Source: Bacteroidota bacterium (GTDB lineage Bacteria; Bacteroidota; Bacteroidia; Flavobacteriales_D; Crocinitomicaceae). From it: a stretch of 60,839 nt of DNA. The notes below the pieces were generated by a model. That model saw only the letters and a program-made list of their open reading frames with translations. It was not told the DNA's origin and made no database searches. Both the position numbers and the translations under genes were made by a program. Within the stretch, counting starts at the first letter, position 1, and every line of letters begins with the position of its first letter. Shown here piece after piece: positions 29,639 through 39,423 of this stretch. The stretch is taken from NCBI GenBank assembly GCA_947378245.1, contig CANCJF010000002.1, positions 1 through 60,839 of the forward strand, read 5' to 3'.

Positions 29639-30847
29639 ATGAAAAAAATACATATATTTCTTGGTTCACTTGCAATGGCTTCTATACTGTTTTCAAGCTG
29701 TAAAAAAGACGAGGTTACCCCTACACCAACCCCTGATAGCTATGCTATCCCTAGTTCCTACGAATTCAAAAATGCTAGCGCTGTTTCCACCGTAGATTTT
29801 AGTGGACAAAAAACGCGCTTGGTGATGCTAGATCAAATCAGTGCGTTAATGACAGATACCTCTTTAGTGAGTGAAGCAACTCTGTTGAAAATGTTTGATG
29901 GAACTGGATTTACAGATGAAGCATTAAACATTTCAGGTAAAAAATTAAGTGATAAAACTGCTTCCTCAACGGATTATTTCTCAGGTATTAATGCAGAACA
30001 AACAAGTATACGCGATGTATTTCGTGCTCAATTTAAATTGGCAGAACTTGCTGTTAAATCAAAAGTGGAGGCAAGTGCTGGCGTAGCGGGAAAATACCTT
30101 GACGGAAGTAAATATCGCTTTTTTAGTGAGAATGGTTTAGAACCTCAACAGGTATTTGCAAAAGGTATGATGGGCGCTTGTTTGTTAGACCAAGTAGTAA
30201 ACAACTACTTAAGTAAGACTAAACTAGATGCTGCTTCAAATGTTGCTAACAACACGAATAAAGTAGTAGAAACCGATAAGACCTACACTACCATGGAACA
30301 CGCGTGGGACGAAGCGTATGGTTACATCTATGGAAATGATAACGTAACAGCAAATCCTGCGGTATACAAATATTGGTCTTCATATATCAATCAAGTAAAC
30401 GCAGACCCTGATTTCAACACGGTGAAAGACGCGATTTACAAAGCGTTCATAAAAGGTAGAGCTGCTATTTCGAATGCCGACTATTCTACGCGTGATGCAC
30501 AAATCGACATTATCAAAACGGAACTGGCAAAAGTACCTGCTGTACGTGCTGTATTTTACTTAAACGAAGGGAAAACAAAATTAGGAACTGCAAACGGAAA
30601 AGCTGCATTCCATGCATTGTCTGAAGCATATGGATTTATCTGGTGTCTACGTTTCACGCAAAATCCTACAACAAAAGCACCTTATTTCTCCAAAGAGGAA
30701 GTAGATGGCATGTTGGCTGATTTACTAAAAGGTACAAACGGTCTATACGATGTCGATTACCTTAACACGGCACTGGAAGCAATCGCTACAAAAATCGCTA
30801 CTCGTTTTGGATTTACGGTTGCTCAAGCTATTGACGCTACTAAATAG
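29639..30847 (+). CDS. DUF4856 domain-containing lipoprotein
   Basis: Lipobox ILFSSC; sequence matches remembered DUF4856 features (YEFKNASAVSTVDFSGQKTRLVMLDQI..., FHALSEAYGFIWCLRF). Confidence 0.8.
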   Translation: MKKIHIFLGSLAMASILFSSCKKDEVTPTPTPDSYAIPSSYEFKNASAVSTVDFSGQKTRLVMLDQISALMTDTSLVSEATLLKMFDGTGFTDEALNISGKKLSDKTASSTDYFSGINAEQTSIRDVFRAQFKLAELAVKSKVEASAGVAGKYLDGSKYRFFSENGLEPQQVFAKGMMGACLLDQVVNNYLSKTKLDAASNVANNTNKVVETDKTYTTMEHAWDEAYGYIYGNDNVTANPAVYKYWSSYINQVNADPDFNTVKDAIYKAFIKGRAAISNADYSTRDAQIDIIKTELAKVPAVRAVFYLNEGKTKLGTANGKAAFHALSEAYGFIWCLRFTQNPTTKAPYFSKEEVDGMLADLLKGTNGLYDVDYLNTALEAIATKIATRFGFTVAQAIDATK

Positions 30848-30917
30848 TTAAAATAGTTAACTTTTGAATTATGAATTGAAAGTCCTTTTTTAGGGGACTT
30901 TCACTAGCTAAACTACC

Positions 30918-31976
30918 ATGAGATACGCTTGGATTATAGGAATTGTACTCGTTCTTACTGCTTGTAAAGACAAAACGTCAAAAGCACAAGACGACACGTT
31001 TAAAAAAACGGAGTTATTGCAACAATTAGCGGACAATTATATTCTCCCATCATATGCTTCGTTACAACAAGATGTAACTTCTTTAGCGACTTCTTGGTCG
31101 AGCTTTGATACTCAAGCTACAGAGGTAACGTTTGATAGTATTAAAACACAATGGAAACGTGCTTACATTCGCTTTCAATACGTGAAAATGTTTGATTTCG
31201 GACCTGGAATGGAACAAAATCTATCCATGAGTTTGGGTACTTTCCCTTGCGACACAGCAGCGATTGAATCAAACATCACAAGTGGTACCTATAACCTATC
31301 GGCCATTTCTAATTACGATGCGGTTGGTTTTCCTGCCTTGGATTATTTGTTATATAAAATGGATGCATACCAATCTATTTCAGGCAATACCGCGCGTAAA
31401 AAATACGTAACCGAATTGATTCAAAAAATGAAATCGGAAGTAGATAAGACAGTTAGCAGTTGGGCGACCTATCGTACCACGTTCGTGGATGGTACAAGCA
31501 ATGCTTCTACGAGTCCGTTTTCTTTGTTTGTCAATAATTACATCCGAGATTACGAAATTTTAAAATGGACAAAATTAGGCTATCCTCTAGGTGCAAATAC
31601 TGGCAATGTAAAAAATCCAGCGTATCTGGAAGCACGAAAATCTGGAATAGGGAAAGAGTTGTTACGTGCAAATATTCATGCCCTTCAACAAGTATACCAT
31701 GGATATGGGATGAATGGAAAAAACGGAAAAAGCATGCACGATTATTTGATTGCACTTGGTAAAACAACCACCGCAACTACCCTAGAAAAAAATTGGGGAG
31801 TATTTCTAACTCAAATCGATGCATTAACGAATAATTTGGAAACGGCATTAAATACAGATACGCAGAAAATGATCGATTTATACAATGCAATTCACTATAA
31901 TACGATCGCATTAAAAACGGACATGGTGAGCGCGTTTGGGATATTAATAACCTACTCAGACAACGACGGAGATTAG
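30918..31976 (+). CDS. Imelysin (peptidase M75-like/EfeO-like) lipoprotein
   Basis: Lipobox VLTAC; FPALDYLLY and LEARKSGIGKELLRANIHALQQVYHG features. Confidence 0.8.
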   Translation: MRYAWIIGIVLVLTACKDKTSKAQDDTFKKTELLQQLADNYILPSYASLQQDVTSLATSWSSFDTQATEVTFDSIKTQWKRAYIRFQYVKMFDFGPGMEQNLSMSLGTFPCDTAAIESNITSGTYNLSAISNYDAVGFPALDYLLYKMDAYQSISGNTARKKYVTELIQKMKSEVDKTVSSWATYRTTFVDGTSNASTSPFSLFVNNYIRDYEILKWTKLGYPLGANTGNVKNPAYLEARKSGIGKELLRANIHALQQVYHGYGMNGKNGKSMHDYLIALGKTTTATTLEKNWGVFLTQIDALTNNLETALNTDTQKMIDLYNAIHYNTIALKTDMVSAFGILITYSDNDGD

Positions 31977-31979
31977 TTT

Positions 31980-33347
31980 ATGAACCGAATAAATCAATAC
32001 CTCTTTAAAGAAACATCTATCCTTCCCTTGGTTGGATTCAGAATCATTTTTGGAGTATTGATGGTCATAGGTACGCTTCGTTTTCTATTGAATGGGTGGG
32101 TAGATCAACTCTACATCCAACCTAAATTCTATTTTGGATTCATAGATGGTATTTCTCCTCTCCCTGGAAATTGGATGTACCTACCTTTTAACCTATTACT
32201 CATTGGAGCTATTGGAATTGTATTAGGCGCATATTACAGAATAAGTACCCTACTTGCATTTATCAGTTTTACCTACATTGAAGTTTTAGATAAAACAAAC
32301 TACCTCAATCACTACTATTTTGTGAGTTTGGTCTTGTTTCTACTCTGTTTTGTTCCTGCAAATGTATATTTATCTTGGGACAGCAAACGAAATCCCTCCA
32401 TCCAAAAAAGACAAGTTCCCCAATGGACCATTCGCATCTTACAACTCCAATTAGGTGTCGTATATTTTTTTGCTGGCGTTGCCAAACTAAATCCAGATTG
32501 GTTACTCCACGCACAACCTTTAGCAATTTGGTTACAAGCATACCGCGATCTACCTATCCTAGGTGATTTCTTTGCTAGCAGTTGGTTAGCATTTGCCTTT
32601 AGTTGGTTTGGCTGTATCTACGACCTTACTATCCCATTCTTTCTACTCTCCAGAAAAACGCGAACCTACGCTTATTTCTTTGTGGTTGTATTCCATATCG
32701 TTACGTGGTCTCTATTTCCTATCGGTGTATTTCCATGGGTGATGATTTTCTCTACCTTGTTGTTTTTTCCTGCTTCATTCCACGAAAAATGGTTGACAAA
32801 AATCGCAACATGGACTCGTTGGAAAGAACATGAAAATAGCTTAACCACTCATTTTCAATCTAATAAATTGATTACTATATGTGTCGTTGTGTATGTATTC
32901 ATCCAATTAGTTCTTCCTATACGCTGTTTTTTTCAGCAACCAAAAACCTTGTTTTGGCACGAAGAAGGGATGCGTTTCTCTTGGCGAGTGATGCTCATGC
33001 ATAAAGAAGGTTTTGCTACATTCTATGTACGCGATGCAAAATCGAAACGCGAACTTCAAATTCGCAATGAAAATTTCTTAACCGAAGGTCAAGTCGATCA
33101 AATGGCTACCCAACCCGATATGATTAAGCAATATGCAGACCATCTCTATGAAAAATTTAATGACAGTTTAATACAAACAAGTCAAGGTTCTTTTCGCATT
33201 CAAAATCCTTCTATCCATGCAGAAATTTTTGTGAGTTTAAATGGGAGAAATGCCCAACTATTTCTAACAAAAAAGCATAATCTACACGAAAAAAAATATT
33301 CATCTAACCCCTATAAATGGTTAGCATCCTATAATTCTAATCTATGA
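31980..33347 (+). CDS. HTTM domain-containing protein (vitamin K-dependent gamma-carboxylase-like)
   Basis: LDKTNYLNHYYFVSLV; QLGVVYFFAGVAKLNPDWLLHAQPL; multiple TM helices and a soluble C-terminus. Confidence 0.88.
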   Translation: MNRINQYLFKETSILPLVGFRIIFGVLMVIGTLRFLLNGWVDQLYIQPKFYFGFIDGISPLPGNWMYLPFNLLLIGAIGIVLGAYYRISTLLAFISFTYIEVLDKTNYLNHYYFVSLVLFLLCFVPANVYLSWDSKRNPSIQKRQVPQWTIRILQLQLGVVYFFAGVAKLNPDWLLHAQPLAIWLQAYRDLPILGDFFASSWLAFAFSWFGCIYDLTIPFFLLSRKTRTYAYFFVVVFHIVTWSLFPIGVFPWVMIFSTLLFFPASFHEKWLTKIATWTRWKEHENSLTTHFQSNKLITICVVVYVFIQLVLPIRCFFQQPKTLFWHEEGMRFSWRVMLMHKEGFATFYVRDAKSKRELQIRNENFLTEGQVDQMATQPDMIKQYADHLYEKFNDSLIQTSQGSFRIQNPSIHAEIFVSLNGRNAQLFLTKKHNLHEKKYSSNPYKWLASYNSNL

Positions 33348-35752
33348 AAATTCTAATCCTATTTTGCATTATTTTCCTTGCAGCTTCTTCAAATGCACAG
33401 GAGTATCATGGCTATGTCGAAAATGAGAATAAAGAAGCAATTTATGGCGCTAAAATTATGTGTGGATCCACGATAGTTTTAAGCGATTGGAATGGAAGGT
33501 TTGAATTAAAAAAACCAATAAATGACACCATAAAAGTCTCCTATTTGGGTTTTGAAACACAAGAAATTCTAATTTCTTCACTCACGAAAAATTTCATCCA
33601 CATCACCCTACTAGCAAATGCCAAAGAAATGAAAGAAGCAATTGTTATCAAGAATCGCTTTGAAAATTTTGATATCGGTTACCTCCCTCCAATCAAAGGC
33701 GTACAAATCACTACTGGGACTAGCACCTTAATACAAACAGAAGGTCAAGGTGGTGCCAAATCGAGTGCAAATCCACGGGAATTGTTTGCCAAAGTTCCTG
33801 GACTCAACATTTGGGAAAGTGATGGTGCAGGAATTCAAATGGGTGTTGGTGGTCGTGGTTTAAGTCCAAACCGTACTGCAAATTTTAATACGCGCCAAAA
33901 TGGGTACGACATCAGTGCAGATGCTTTAGGTTATCCTGAATCCTACTATACCCCACCCTTAGAAGCACTTTCTGCGATTGAAATTATTCGTGGTTCTGCT
34001 TCGCTACAATATGGAACGCAATTCGGCGGTTTGATGAATTTCATAATCAAAGAACCAGCAAAAAATTCTCCTTTTGAGTTTACTTCTCGCGCAACTGTCG
34101 GTAACTTTGGGTACAAGGCAGGATTTTTGCGTTTTAGCGGGACCAAAAACAAATTCGAATACCAAACCTATTACCAATACAAAGAAGGAACAGGATATCG
34201 TAATAATAGTCCGTTTAACCAACAACAATATTTTGCGCAACTTGGTTATCGTTTTAGCGACAAACAATCCATTCGCCTAGAATACACTACCATGAGCTAC
34301 GATGCGCAACAGCCGGGCGGATTAACAGACAAACAGTTTTACGAAAATCCAATACAAAGTGTCCGAGATAGAAACTGGTTTAAGGTAAACTGGAACCTGC
34401 TAGCACTGCACTATAACTTAGAAATCAAACCGGAATTACTGCTTAACATTCGTTCCTTCGGAATTCTTTCCTCCCGTCAATCCCTTGGTTTTTTAGGGAA
34501 AATTAACCAACAAGACCCAGGAAATGAACGCCAACTGATTTACGGTGATTTTAAAAATACTGGAACCGAAGTACGTCTTTTAAAAAAATATGAATTTACT
34601 ATCAAAGAAAAAACCATCAAAGGCGCATCCTTGGTCGGAGGAAGATTTTATATCGGACAAACCTCTGCTTTACAAGGAAATGCACCAGGTGGAAGCGAAG
34701 CAGATTTTCGATTTACTTCCAACAACGAATTAGAAAATTCCAACTATTTATTTCCATCGAATAACCTATCCCTTTTCACCGAACACATTTGGTTTTTAAG
34801 TTCTCGCACATCCTTCAACGTAGGATTTCGCTACGAACACATTACCAGTGCTTCTTCTGGATACTATAAAGTGTACAGCATCCATAATCTAACCCAAGAT
34901 ACACTCGCTATTCAAAAATTTGAATCCAGTAATTCTTTAACGCGTTCTGTACCTTTGGGTGGTTTTGGACTTTCTTATAAAACGACTAAACAAACCAACC
35001 TATATGGAAATTTCTGTATGAATTACCGTGCGGTCAATTTTAGCGATATTCGAGTAACCAATCCAAACTTATTGATCGACAGTGCGATGCGTGACGAATA
35101 TGGATCCACCGCTGAAATCGGTTTCCGCGGATTCATCAAACGCTATTTATATGTCGATGTAGCCGCTTTTCACTTGTATTATGGCGACAAAATTGGAATT
35201 ACTCCACTGGAAGGTAGCATCAAAAAAATCCGTACAAACATTGGAAATGCACGTAATGTTGGGGTAGAATGTTTGGTGGAATTTGACTTTATCAAAGCAA
35301 TCAATGACAGCTCTAAATACAATTCATCGTTCTATGTGAATTTCTCCTATATCCATGCGAAATATGTCTCCTCCAAAGAGGCAAACTTTATCGGTAAACA
35401 ACTAGAATATGTGAGTCCGATTATCCTGAAATCAGGAGTAAAAATCAAACACGACCGTTGGGGAGCAACCATCCAAGGTTCATACAATGCTGCACAATTC
35501 TCGGACGCTTCTAATTCCGTAGAACCGAGCGGTGATGCGGTTATCGGTAAAGTACCAGCCTATTTTGTAATGGATCTATCTGCAAAGTATAATTTCAAGA
35601 AATGGTTTACCCTTGAAGGTGGAATCAACAACCTATTAAACGAATCCTATTTTACGCGTAGAGCTACGGCCTATCCTGGTCCTGGAATTTTACCTTCTGA
35701 TGGTCGAAATTTCTACGTGACGGTGCAGTTTAAGATTGGTGAGAGGAAGTGA
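33344..35752 (+). CDS. TonB-dependent receptor, FecA-like (iron complex)
   Basis: Carboxypeptidase-like N-terminal domain, plug GVGGRGLSPNRTANFNTRQNGYDISADALGYPESYYTPP; beta-barrel C-terminus GRNFYVTVQFKIG. ATGA overlap with HTTM. Confidence 0.92.
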   Translation: MKILILFCIIFLAASSNAQEYHGYVENENKEAIYGAKIMCGSTIVLSDWNGRFELKKPINDTIKVSYLGFETQEILISSLTKNFIHITLLANAKEMKEAIVIKNRFENFDIGYLPPIKGVQITTGTSTLIQTEGQGGAKSSANPRELFAKVPGLNIWESDGAGIQMGVGGRGLSPNRTANFNTRQNGYDISADALGYPESYYTPPLEALSAIEIIRGSASLQYGTQFGGLMNFIIKEPAKNSPFEFTSRATVGNFGYKAGFLRFSGTKNKFEYQTYYQYKEGTGYRNNSPFNQQQYFAQLGYRFSDKQSIRLEYTTMSYDAQQPGGLTDKQFYENPIQSVRDRNWFKVNWNLLALHYNLEIKPELLLNIRSFGILSSRQSLGFLGKINQQDPGNERQLIYGDFKNTGTEVRLLKKYEFTIKEKTIKGASLVGGRFYIGQTSALQGNAPGGSEADFRFTSNNELENSNYLFPSNNLSLFTEHIWFLSSRTSFNVGFRYEHITSASSGYYKVYSIHNLTQDTLAIQKFESSNSLTRSVPLGGFGLSYKTTKQTNLYGNFCMNYRAVNFSDIRVTNPNLLIDSAMRDEYGSTAEIGFRGFIKRYLYVDVAAFHLYYGDKIGITPLEGSIKKIRTNIGNARNVGVECLVEFDFIKAINDSSKYNSSFYVNFSYIHAKYVSSKEANFIGKQLEYVSPIILKSGVKIKHDRWGATIQGSYNAAQFSDASNSVEPSGDAVIGKVPAYFVMDLSAKYNFKKWFTLEGGINNLLNESYFTRRATAYPGPGILPSDGRNFYVTVQFKIGERK

Positions 35753-36412
35753 TTACACTACATAAATATTCTCGGCAAACTTTTCGCTCACACTCGATTC
35801 AACCCCATTCACCTCAATCACCATCAAAGCATCGAATTCCTGACGCGATTTTACATGTATCTCATTATTAATTCCCAATCCTACCTTCACCACATACTGT
35901 AGAAAAGCGGATGAATTATCCTTCACTGCTACCATCTTACATAGCTGACCGACTGGTATATCTAACAATGTTTTACGAAATTGCTTGGTCAACTCCCCTC
36001 CTTTCGATGGAATCGGATCTCCGTGTGGATCAAACGCTGGATAATCCAAAAATTTCTCCAATTTATCAATCAACTTAGACGACTGGATATGCTCCAATTG
36101 CTCTGCTACATCATGTACTTCATCCCAACTAAACTCTAACTTTTCATACAAAAAGGTCTCCCACAACCGGTGCTTACGTATCACTTCCGTAGCAATATTC
36201 TTCCCTTCTCGTGTTAAGGTAATCTTCTTGTACTTTTCAAAATCAACCAAGGCTTTGTCGCGTAAACGCTTCAACATGTCATTCGCTGTTGCCGGTTTCA
36301 CACCTAAGTGCAATGCTAATTCATTCGTTCCGACTCCTGTTTCACCACTGTCAAAAGAAATGCGTAACAAGGCTTTTAAATAATTCTCCTCCGTAAATGA
36401 AATCATAGACAT
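35753..36412 (-). CDS. DtxR/MntR-family metal-dependent transcriptional regulator
   Basis: N-terminal HTH TEENYLKALLRISFDSGETGVGTNELALHLGVKPATANDMLKRL; HRLWETFL; FDPHGDPIP. Start refined to MSMISF (36412); the track ORF starts at 36436. Confidence 0.92.
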   Translation of the reverse strand: MSMISFTEENYLKALLRISFDSGETGVGTNELALHLGVKPATANDMLKRLRDKALVDFEKYKKITLTREGKNIATEVIRKHRLWETFLYEKLEFSWDEVHDVAEQLEHIQSSKLIDKLEKFLDYPAFDPHGDPIPSKGGELTKQFRKTLLDIPVGQLCKMVAVKDNSSAFLQYVVKVGLGINNEIHVKSRQEFDALMVIEVNGVESSVSEKFAENIYVV

Positions 36413-36461
36413 GTAGTTGTTAGTGCTTACAAACAAAGATAAAACAAATAATCAAACTAAA

Positions 36462-36493
36462 TTTGTTAGACTAGTCTAACTTTATTATATTTG
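36462..36493 (+). promoter_or_regulatory. Bacteroidota promoter TTTG-N20-TATATTTG
   Basis: TTTG 36462-36465; TATATTTG 36486-36493. Confidence 0.7.
36465..36480. promoter_or_regulatory. Perfect 16-bp palindromic operator candidate for the DtxR-family regulator
   Basis: GTTAGACTAGTCTAAC, in the divergent intergenic region and inside the -33/-7 spacer of the TonB-receptor promoter. Confidence 0.75.
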
Positions 36494-36518: not shown

Positions 36519-38822
36519 TTGTATATGTTCAAATTACACCAAATTCTAACCTTGTTTTTTATCTGTGGTTCGTTTTTTCTATCTGCGCAACAAAGTGTAA
36601 TTACAGGGAAAGTAATCGCTGATAACAAACCGATACAAAAGGTTAACGTGGTACTTGTTGGTACATCCTACTCCACCATAACAGATTCTGTAGGACAATT
36701 TATACTCGAAAAGATACCAAACGCAAGCTATAAAATCAGGGTACTCTCCCTCGAACACCACAAAAATGAAAAAACGATTACCCTGAAAGATAGAGACACG
36801 CTTAACATTAACCTAGAACTCTTCTCCAATGCCAAAGAATTAGAACAAGTGGTCATTTCTGGAACCATGAAGGAAATCACTCGCTCAGAAAGCCCTGTCC
36901 CTGTGGAAGTTTATTCCCAAACCTATTTCAAGAAAAACCCAACAGCAAACATCTACGAAGCACTCCAAAATGTGAATGGTGTGCGTCCTCAACTCAACTG
37001 TGCGGTATGCAATACGGGAGATATCCACATCAACGGTTTGGAAGGTCCATACACGATGGTACTCATTGATGGTATGCCAATCGTGAGTAGTTTATCCACG
37101 GTTTACGGACTCTCGGGAATACCGAACTCGCTTGTCGATCGCATCGAAATTGTCAAAGGACCTGCCTCCTCCCTTTATGGTAGTGAAGCAGTCGGAGGAT
37201 TGATCAACATCATCACTAAAAAAACACAAAATACGCCCCGATTTAGTACGGATGTTTTTACTACTAGCTGGGGAGAAGTTAATACAGACCTAGGTTTAAA
37301 AATGAAAATCAAAGAAAAAGCGGAGGTTCTGACTGGTGTCAACTACTTCAATTTCCAACAAAAAATAGATAAAAACAAGGATAACTTTACCGATATGACC
37401 CTACAAGACCGTATTTCAGTATTCCAAAAATGGAATTTTATCAGAAAGGAAAATCGCATCTTTAACCTAGCGGGTCGTTGTATGTACGAAGATCGTAACG
37501 GCGGAGATGTTCGATGGGAAAAAAAATTCAGAGGTGGAGACAGTATTTATGGGGAAAGTATCTACACTTCGCGCTACGAAGTACTCGGTAATTATCAACT
37601 TCCAACTACAGAAAAAGTAATGCTCTCTTTCTCATACAACAGCCACGCTCAAGATTCTCGTTATGGAACAACTTCCTACATTGCGCTTCAACAAATCGGG
37701 TTTTCTCAACTTACCTGGGATAAAAAACTGGGCAAACATGATTTTTTACTCGGAACCGCTCTGCGATATACGTTCTATGACGATAACACACCGGCAACCC
37801 AAAATACGGATACCATTCAACCAACAACAATCGCTCAAAAAACCTGGTTACCTGGAAGTTTTATACAAGATGAAATTGCCATCACGGATAAAAACAAACT
37901 CTTACTCGGATTTCGGTACGACTATAACTCCTACCACGGCAACATCTTCACACCACGCATCGGCTATAAATGGGCAATTAAGGAAAATAAGAGCCTGCGA
38001 ATTAACGCCGGAACAGGATTTAGAGTGGTCAACCTATTCACCGAAGACCACGCAGCACTAACGGGTGCACGTACCGTAGAAATTAAACACGAATTACGAC
38101 CAGAAAAATCCTACAATGCAAATATCAACTACATCCATAAAATTACGCTAGAAAAGGGAACAACAATCAACCTAGATGCTACAGCATTTTACACCTACTT
38201 CAACAACCGTATCGTCGGAGATTTTGATACCGATCCCAATAAAATAATCTATGATAATTTAAACGGACACGCTGTAAGTAAAGGATTAAGCCTGAATGTA
38301 GAATTGAATCTAATACAAGGTCTCAAAATAATCACTGGTGGTACACTAATGGAAAATACCTTAACAGAAAATGGAATCACCAGACAACAAATACTTACAG
38401 AAAAATTCACGGGTGTTTGGGCAGTTTCTTACAAAATAAAAAAAGCAAAATTAGCAATCGACTATACAGGAAATGTATATAGTCCAATGCGTCTACCAAT
38501 ACTCGGCGAACTAGATCCACGTAGTTCCGTTTCCCCATGGTGGAGCATCCAAAACATTCAGTTTACCTACAACGGATTTAAAAACTTCGAAATCTATGGT
38601 GGTGTCAAAAACCTCCTCAACTGGACGCCATTTAAGGAAAAAAATCCATTCATCATCGCGCGTACCAACGACCCATTCGATAAAAACGTAAAACTCGATG
38701 CACATGGAAAAGTACTTGTAACTCCAGAAAACCCTTACGGACTCACCTTCGACCCTACTTACATCTACGCCCCAACGCAAGGGATAAGAACGTTTATAGG
38801 CGTGAGGTATTTTTTAAAATAA
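36519..38822 (+). CDS. TonB-dependent receptor with CxxC in plug domain
   Basis: CarboxypepD_reg-like domain, LNCAVCNTGDIHINGLEGPYTMVLIDGMPIVSSLSTVYGLSGIP, VKGPASSLYGSEAVGGLINIITKK, C-terminal GVRYFLK. Confidence 0.92.
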   Translation: MYMFKLHQILTLFFICGSFFLSAQQSVITGKVIADNKPIQKVNVVLVGTSYSTITDSVGQFILEKIPNASYKIRVLSLEHHKNEKTITLKDRDTLNINLELFSNAKELEQVVISGTMKEITRSESPVPVEVYSQTYFKKNPTANIYEALQNVNGVRPQLNCAVCNTGDIHINGLEGPYTMVLIDGMPIVSSLSTVYGLSGIPNSLVDRIEIVKGPASSLYGSEAVGGLINIITKKTQNTPRFSTDVFTTSWGEVNTDLGLKMKIKEKAEVLTGVNYFNFQQKIDKNKDNFTDMTLQDRISVFQKWNFIRKENRIFNLAGRCMYEDRNGGDVRWEKKFRGGDSIYGESIYTSRYEVLGNYQLPTTEKVMLSFSYNSHAQDSRYGTTSYIALQQIGFSQLTWDKKLGKHDFLLGTALRYTFYDDNTPATQNTDTIQPTTIAQKTWLPGSFIQDEIAITDKNKLLLGFRYDYNSYHGNIFTPRIGYKWAIKENKSLRINAGTGFRVVNLFTEDHAALTGARTVEIKHELRPEKSYNANINYIHKITLEKGTTINLDATAFYTYFNNRIVGDFDTDPNKIIYDNLNGHAVSKGLSLNVELNLIQGLKIITGGTLMENTLTENGITRQQILTEKFTGVWAVSYKIKKAKLAIDYTGNVYSPMRLPILGELDPRSSVSPWWSIQNIQFTYNGFKNFEIYGGVKNLLNWTPFKEKNPFIIARTNDPFDKNVKLDAHGKVLVTPENPYGLTFDPTYIYAPTQGIRTFIGVRYFLK

Positions 38823-39009: not shown

Positions 39010-39423
39010 ATGAAAGTTTACGAAGTAGAAGGGAAAATTCGTTCCGAATGGAATTCAGAAGTTAGAGCAATTATTGATACTTGGACGACTTATATGATAA
39101 GTTTAGAGGAGTTTAAGACTTCTGTACTCGACAATAGTTTGTTATTTGCAAAAGCAAATAATGGACAAGCTTGGATAGTGGATTCAAGTCAAGCAAAAGG
39201 GTTGTTTTCAAAAGAACAACTAGCATTCATTGATAAAGCAGTGTTTCCAGCATTTCATAAAGCAGGAATAAAATATTTCATTACAATCAAACCTACAAAT
39301 AGTGTGTTTACTGAAATGACAGTAAAACAATATTCCGCCCTTTCTGGACCACATGGTGTACAACTGGTAGAAGTAAGCAATGTTGACCAAGCAATTATGT
39401 GGCTGAAAAGCAATGCTAAATAA
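39010..39423 (+). CDS. Hypothetical protein, possible STAS/SpoIIAA-like fold
   Basis: 137-aa ORF; alternating beta/alpha pattern with AWIVDSSQAKGLFS and KYFITIKP; no firm family match by eye. Confidence 0.5.
   Translation: MKVYEVEGKIRSEWNSEVRAIIDTWTTYMISLEEFKTSVLDNSLLFAKANNGQAWIVDSSQAKGLFSKEQLAFIDKAVFPAFHKAGIKYFITIKPTNSVFTEMTVKQYSALSGPHGVQLVEVSNVDQAIMWLKSNAK

Follow-up and report, generated by a model that had tools for sequence, protein, structure and literature searches.

To our knowledge, the passage of manganese across the outer membrane is understood in just a few Gram-negative bacteria. Operators for DtxR/MntR regulators within importer promoters are already known, and a TonB-dependent receptor under MntR control has just been reported elsewhere. 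The regulators MntR of Bacillus subtilis, the streptococcal ScaR/SloR, and PgMntR of Porphyromonas gingivalis contain a helix-turn-helix (HTH) domain and a metal-binding/dimerization domain, followed in ScaR/SloR and PgMntR by FeoA, share a Glu-Glu-His metal-site core, and control NRAMP or ABC-type Mn importers through operators in the importer promoters. The B. subtilis MntR box appears to differ in sequence from the operator described here. The DNA complex of PgMntR is destabilized by Fe (PMC4805248). A 2026 report on Stenotrophomonas maltophilia described an MntR-controlled TonB receptor with a CQNC motif in its plug, plus a periplasmic thioredoxin-fold protein (PMC13217887). This receptor was made only when Mn and Fe were both limiting and was off at 80 nM Mn, and Mn still partly repressed it without MntR; the CQNC receptor/pTFP synteny was reported for Lysobacterales, Sphingomonadales and Opitutales, with Bacteroidota unmentioned (PMC13217887).

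The locus compared here lies in the window, the whole 60,839-nucleotide stretch that was analyzed, from a Crocinitomicaceae (Bacteroidota) assembly (GCA_947378245.1, contig CANCJF010000002.1). Genes for a DtxR/MntR-family regulator and a TonB-dependent receptor diverge from an intergenic gap of 112 bp that contains the palindrome GTTAGACTAGTCTAAC. The features are as follows, where counts out of 69 refer to orthologous loci that carry the palindrome.

35753..36412, minus strand: DtxR/MntR-family metalloregulator gene (HTH, metal-binding/dimerization and FeoA domains).
36434..36441, minus strand: TATCTTTG, a probable -7 element for the divergently oriented regulator promoter; distance to the operator, 23 bp.
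36462..36465, plus strand: -33 element TTTG of the receptor promoter; TTTG at the same place in 51/69 loci.
36465..36480, no strand: predicted operator, the perfect 16-bp palindrome GTTAGACTAGTCTAAC, a predicted site for one MntR/DtxR-type dimer.
36486..36493, plus strand: -7 element TATATTTG of the receptor promoter; TAnnTTTR conserved at this register in 58/69 loci.
36525..38822, plus strand: TonB-dependent receptor gene, predicted metal receptor (CarboxypepD-like N-terminal domain, CxxC in the plug).

An earlier note, made from the letters of the window, had placed the palindrome, the TTTG and the -7 element exactly, to the base, and had likened the palindrome to a TTAG-N-CTAA box, a likeness borne out by half-sites laid out as in the DtxR-family box. 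The predicted receptor promoter reproduces the Bacteroidota sigma-A pattern exactly (TTTG, about 19-20 bp, TAnnTTTG), the -7 consensus of Flavobacterium sigma-A being TAnnTTTG (PMC9723704). Its two elements are separated by 20 bp, and the palindrome opens on the final G of the TTTG. No other match to GTTAGACTAGTCTAAC with three or fewer mismatches occurs in the window, and across the 2.98-Mb assembly the perfect match occurs only once, the next-best matches having three mismatches. Perfect 16-bp palindromes numbered two in the window against 1.8 expected by base composition, and 0.003 would be expected in the intergenic gap alone. Palindromy by itself is therefore common in the window, and the case for an operator depends on conservation.

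Regulator orthologues were gathered by protein rather than by DNA, and 79 loci had upstream sequence. The earlier note had held that its proposal would fall if orthologous intergenic regions lacked the palindrome; the comparison was made, and the consensus GTTAGRYTARYCTAAC was present between the regulator gene and its divergent neighbor in 69 of the 79, with no mismatch in 31 loci, at most one in 50 and at most two in 63. Shuffled upstream regions matched with at most two mismatches at a probability of 0.0014 per region, which predicts about 0.1 loci against the 63 observed; the consensus was derived from the same loci, a mild circularity, and the whole-genome searches share only part of that set. 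When regulators were clustered at 80% identity, the site was present in 40 of 46 clusters. Positions 2-3 (TT) and 13-15 (TAA) were identical in all 69 loci and G5 and C12 in 67, so that the outer half-site bases are near-invariant around a variable center. The ten loci without the operator likewise lacked a divergent receptor or recognized metal gene. The predicted operator keeps an equivalent position in dozens of Bacteroidota, and this conservation in orthologous loci is what takes it beyond chance. A functionless chance palindrome would fit the 1.8 expected in the window and the isolated near-matches elsewhere in the host genome, which fall mostly in coding sequence, and palindromy alone does leave room for it; it is contradicted by the conservation, by the fixed promoter register and by the enrichment of targets, and was rejected on the comparative evidence as having next to no probability.

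The promoter elements keep their register around the operator. TAnnTTTR follows it with a spacer of 20 in 51 loci and of 19 in seven (58/69 together), and 46/69 loci combine TAnnTTTR at spacer 19-20 with TTTG; the overlap of palindrome and -33/-7 spacer, pointed out from the window alone, is thus a register conserved across loci. An exact operator-plus-promoter pattern gave two matches in 396 genomes of the phylum and none with a reversed control, and is specific, yet too strict for a census. On the other side, 46/69 loci have a TAnnTTTG on the minus strand in the interval from operator to regulator gene, against 4.5 expected from shuffling, mostly 22-25 bp from the operator and most commonly 23 bp. 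Autoregulation of the regulator gene through the operator is plausible, because the element lies at this distance in most loci that have one. The autoregulation suggested in the earlier note is in keeping with this conserved divergent -7 element; in the window, a -33 element for the regulator promoter would fall at the operator edge, where a canonical TTTG is absent.

Searches of 98 related genomes returned the operator with at most one mismatch at 41 places. Twenty of these near-perfect sites preceded a DtxR orthologue by no more than 250 bp (expectation, 0.003), and 35 lay upstream of a regulator, TonB receptor, ZIP, NRAMP or di-haem oxidoreductase gene. Downstream of the 21 non-regulator sites were TonB receptors in six cases (L129, L179, L137, L145, L148, L150), ZIP transporters in six (L138, L140, L146, L178, L180, L182), a di-haem oxidoreductase in two (L139, L181) and an NRAMP transporter in one (L183); two sites were cut by contig ends beside ndk, the usual ZIP neighbor in these genomes, and four were unexplained, two of them within genes. 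In six genomes (G005, G002, G026, G058, G029, G044) the regulator gene is located elsewhere and the sites stand at receptor, ZIP or di-haem oxidoreductase genes; such sites at metal genes away from the regulator gene argue for regulation in trans. The divergent neighbors at the 69 loci comprised 64 TonB receptors by tblastn, a further one by its Plug domain (L097), one NRAMP (L054), two di-haem oxidoreductases and one Phenol_MetA_deg-type protein. At two loci (L153, L154) the site heads an operon for a receptor, a MetA-like protein, a ZnuA/TroA-type binding protein, an ABC ATPase and an ABC-3 permease. At L163, a related receptor gene is followed by genes for the regulator, a TroA-like protein (best solved match, TroA), an ATPase and permeases, with no matching site.

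Two other gene arrangements were observed among these loci. A di-haem oxidoreductase lipoprotein gene followed by one for a small secreted protein stands under the operator at L139:1-1466 and L181:2100-3731, and the oxidoreductase would be a redox partner not anticipated in a regulon for metal uptake. An ABC-3 permease with a C-terminal DtxR-type metal-binding domain (Fe_dep_repr_C) is encoded at L153:3414-4688, with similar proteins in L154 and L164; this fusion, beside the regulator in several relatives, is possibly a metal-sensing transporter.

The operator could instead belong to another regulator sharing these targets, for example Fur or Zur, with the DtxR protein not the binder. The near-complete genome G066 lends itself to this reading and sits less easily with control by the neighboring repressor, since an operator-like site (L150) stands there at a TonB receptor gene and no regulator orthologue was detected. 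The site nevertheless adjoins a dtxR-like gene in 20 of the 41 near-perfect sites and 69 of the 79 regulator loci while the adjacent receptors and transporters vary, and its TTAG...CTAA half-sites are arranged as in DtxR-family boxes, which leaves another binder very improbable. Conservation and the target families across relatives indicate that the palindrome is very probably the operator of the adjacent MntR-like repressor, predicted to occlude the receptor promoter with Mn(II), possibly Fe(II), as co-repressor. The metalloregulator operator proposed in the earlier note is in this way supported by the 69 of 79 loci and by the metal-gene targets in relatives.

The window regulator has the HTH and metal-binding/dimerization domains of the DtxR/MntR family and then FeoA, in the order seen in MntR regulators (Pfam: Fe_dep_repress 3.5e-11, Fe_dep_repr_C 2.1e-31, FeoA 1.3e-11), and its conserved start is probably 36406. 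Its best solved relatives are 5zr4 (a metal-dependent transcriptional regulator), SloR and ScaR. Residue equivalences were taken from the alignment with SloR and from the ligands listed in PMC4805248. Asn10, His81, Glu85, His100, Glu104, Glu107, His108, Asp128 and His130 are invariant or nearly so in 81 orthologues (His108 in 80/81), and E104, E107, H108 and H81 supply the conserved metal ligands of the family, with the Glu-Glu-His core of MntR regulators. Glu104 occupies the position of MntR Glu99 and DtxR Cys102, and Asn10 that of MntR Asp8 and DtxR Met10. The classical MntR pair (Asp8 and Glu99, B. subtilis numbering) is therefore half retained, with Glu kept and Asp (BsMntR Asp8, PgMntR Asp19) replaced by the invariant Asn; the Met and Cys ligands of DtxR are absent, and PgMntR differs further in its Cys108 and in its second FeoA domain, two being present. 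A match of 147 bits to the NCBIfam model for Thermus-type MntR fell far under the model cut-off of 350. Because Asn replaces the Asp, the regulator is called MntR-like with no classical MntR assignment, and its predicted metal site is MntR-like with Asn at the selectivity position.

The same operator and repressor might respond to Fe(II), as an IdeR/DtxR-like iron switch. The operator does resemble the DtxR/IdeR box TTAGGTTAGCCTAACCTAA (PMC7762939) in its TTAG...CTAA half-sites with six bases between, and the site at L084, which carries GTTAGGTTAGCCTAAC, holds the first 14 box bases exactly; the metal site has Asn10 in place of the MntR Asp, and the adjoining imelysin-type gene cluster has an iron flavor. 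The full 19-bp TTAGGTTAGCCTAACCTAA was not matched, however, the conserved unit here being one 16-bp palindrome with a 14-16-bp core; the positions flanking the core are promoter elements. Glu104 replaces the iron-associated DtxR Cys in all 81 orthologues, and NRAMP and a TroA-like ABC system are among the targets. DNA binding by PgMntR, the closest regulator studied in Bacteroidota, is better with Mn (PMC4805248), and the regulated receptor type most like this one responds to Mn (PMC13217887). An iron switch thus appears unlikely, though well short of negligible. Glu104, targets of the NRAMP and TroA types and the parallel in Stenotrophomonas favor Mn(II) over Fe(II) as the likeliest co-repressor, even though Asn at the MntR Asp8/DtxR Met10 position leaves the metal choice open and ZIP and TroA-like proteins can carry other metals too.

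The window receptor consists of CarboxypepD_reg, Plug and TonB barrel domains. The plug pair C159-x-x-C162 is invariant across 34 receptor orthologues, reading CAVC in the window receptor and CNIC or CNVC in relatives. A plug CxxC and MntR-kind control are shared with the Stenotrophomonas module, from which the locus differs in that none of these motifs is CQNC. A thioredoxin-fold gene with WCxYC follows the receptor in four relatives (L156, L157, L160, L161) but is absent beside the window receptor, where the downstream gene (39010-39423) has no Pfam match; the lack of this partner counts against the preferred reading. The likeness, as judged from the published description, is one of motif, partner and regulator. 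A different type of receptor, lacking CxxC, is present at about 20 of the loci that bear the operator, so that operator and receptor type are not rigidly tied, which suggests that the receptor has been replaced under a conserved operator. CxxC-less TonB receptors are about 800-830 aa long and about 22-32% identical over the matched part (L048, L050, L052, L057, L060-L063, L071, L076, L077 and L081, and further L082, L085, L087 and L090). An AlphaFold2 model of the window receptor (pLDDT 83.8) is an ordinary TonB receptor that matched, at 13-17% identity, many receptors for siderophores, cobalamin and haem, and with structural neighbors of such mixed substrates the fold leaves the receptor substrate unfixed. 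A plasmid search for receptor relatives gave less than 30% identity among the matches listed.

Receptor residues 282-290 form an EF-hand-like DKNKDNFTD, in which D282, N284, D286 and D290 are invariant in 34 orthologues, and these residues may form a calcium site on a loop of the barrel. Positions 29639-35752 encode DUF4856, imelysin, an HTTM/gamma-carboxylase-like protein and a TonB receptor, likely an iron-uptake operon that meets the dtxR-like gene tail-to-tail; the HTTM protein additionally carries a vitamin K-dependent gamma-carboxylase lumenal domain.

The host genome, a 92% complete assembly, was scanned with consensus patterns rather than a weight matrix. A larger regulon in this genome was considered and rejected: a scan for the 14-bp core that allowed one mismatch turned up eight further sites, none beside a recognized metal gene, seven of them within coding sequence and the eighth (L122) between two genes with three mismatches to the 16-mer. 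No operator precedes the ZIP gene on contig 38, where the best match (score 8.3) falls within the coding region, and no NRAMP gene was found in the assembly, which is a point against the Mn-responsive MntR-like reading; an ABC-3 match was marginal, and FeoB is present. With no second strong site, the regulon here may be a single locus, the switch serving this gene pair alone. The wider regulon foreseen in the earlier note accordingly holds for metal genes in relatives but not for the host genome.

The following mechanism is proposed for the Mn-responsive MntR-like repressor. With enough Mn(II), or possibly Fe(II), in the cytoplasm, the dimer would load metal and bind positions 36465-36480. As the site extends from the end of the -33 element across most of the spacer, the bound dimer would cover this stretch and shut the receptor promoter by occluding RNA polymerase, although this promoter could have further inputs. 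The operator also abuts the upstream edge of the regulator promoter, for which reason regulator expression is probably adjusted by this dimer as well. Under metal shortage, the repressor would leave and the CxxC-plug receptor would be made, importing what we infer to be the scarce metal across the outer membrane.

A TonB receptor as target sets this locus apart from the MntR regulators outlined above. The literature searched, with RegPrecise and subscription papers outside its scope, contained no description of this operator or regulon for Bacteroidota and no Mn regulon with a defined operator for the phylum. It is an even call whether these loci form an undescribed Bacteroidota-wide Mn regulon, in which an Asn-site MntR-like repressor and one 16-bp operator in the -33/-7 spacer would govern CxxC-plug TonB receptors together with ZIP, NRAMP and TroA-type ABC importers and a di-haem oxidoreductase. 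By pointing to receptor, importer and redox genes throughout the phylum, the operator makes both Mn entry and the Bacteroidota Mn regulon testable in culturable relatives such as Pedobacter, in which loci L100 and L102 carry GTTAGACTAGTCTAAC, and it offers a cheap route to substrate classes for anonymous TonB receptors.
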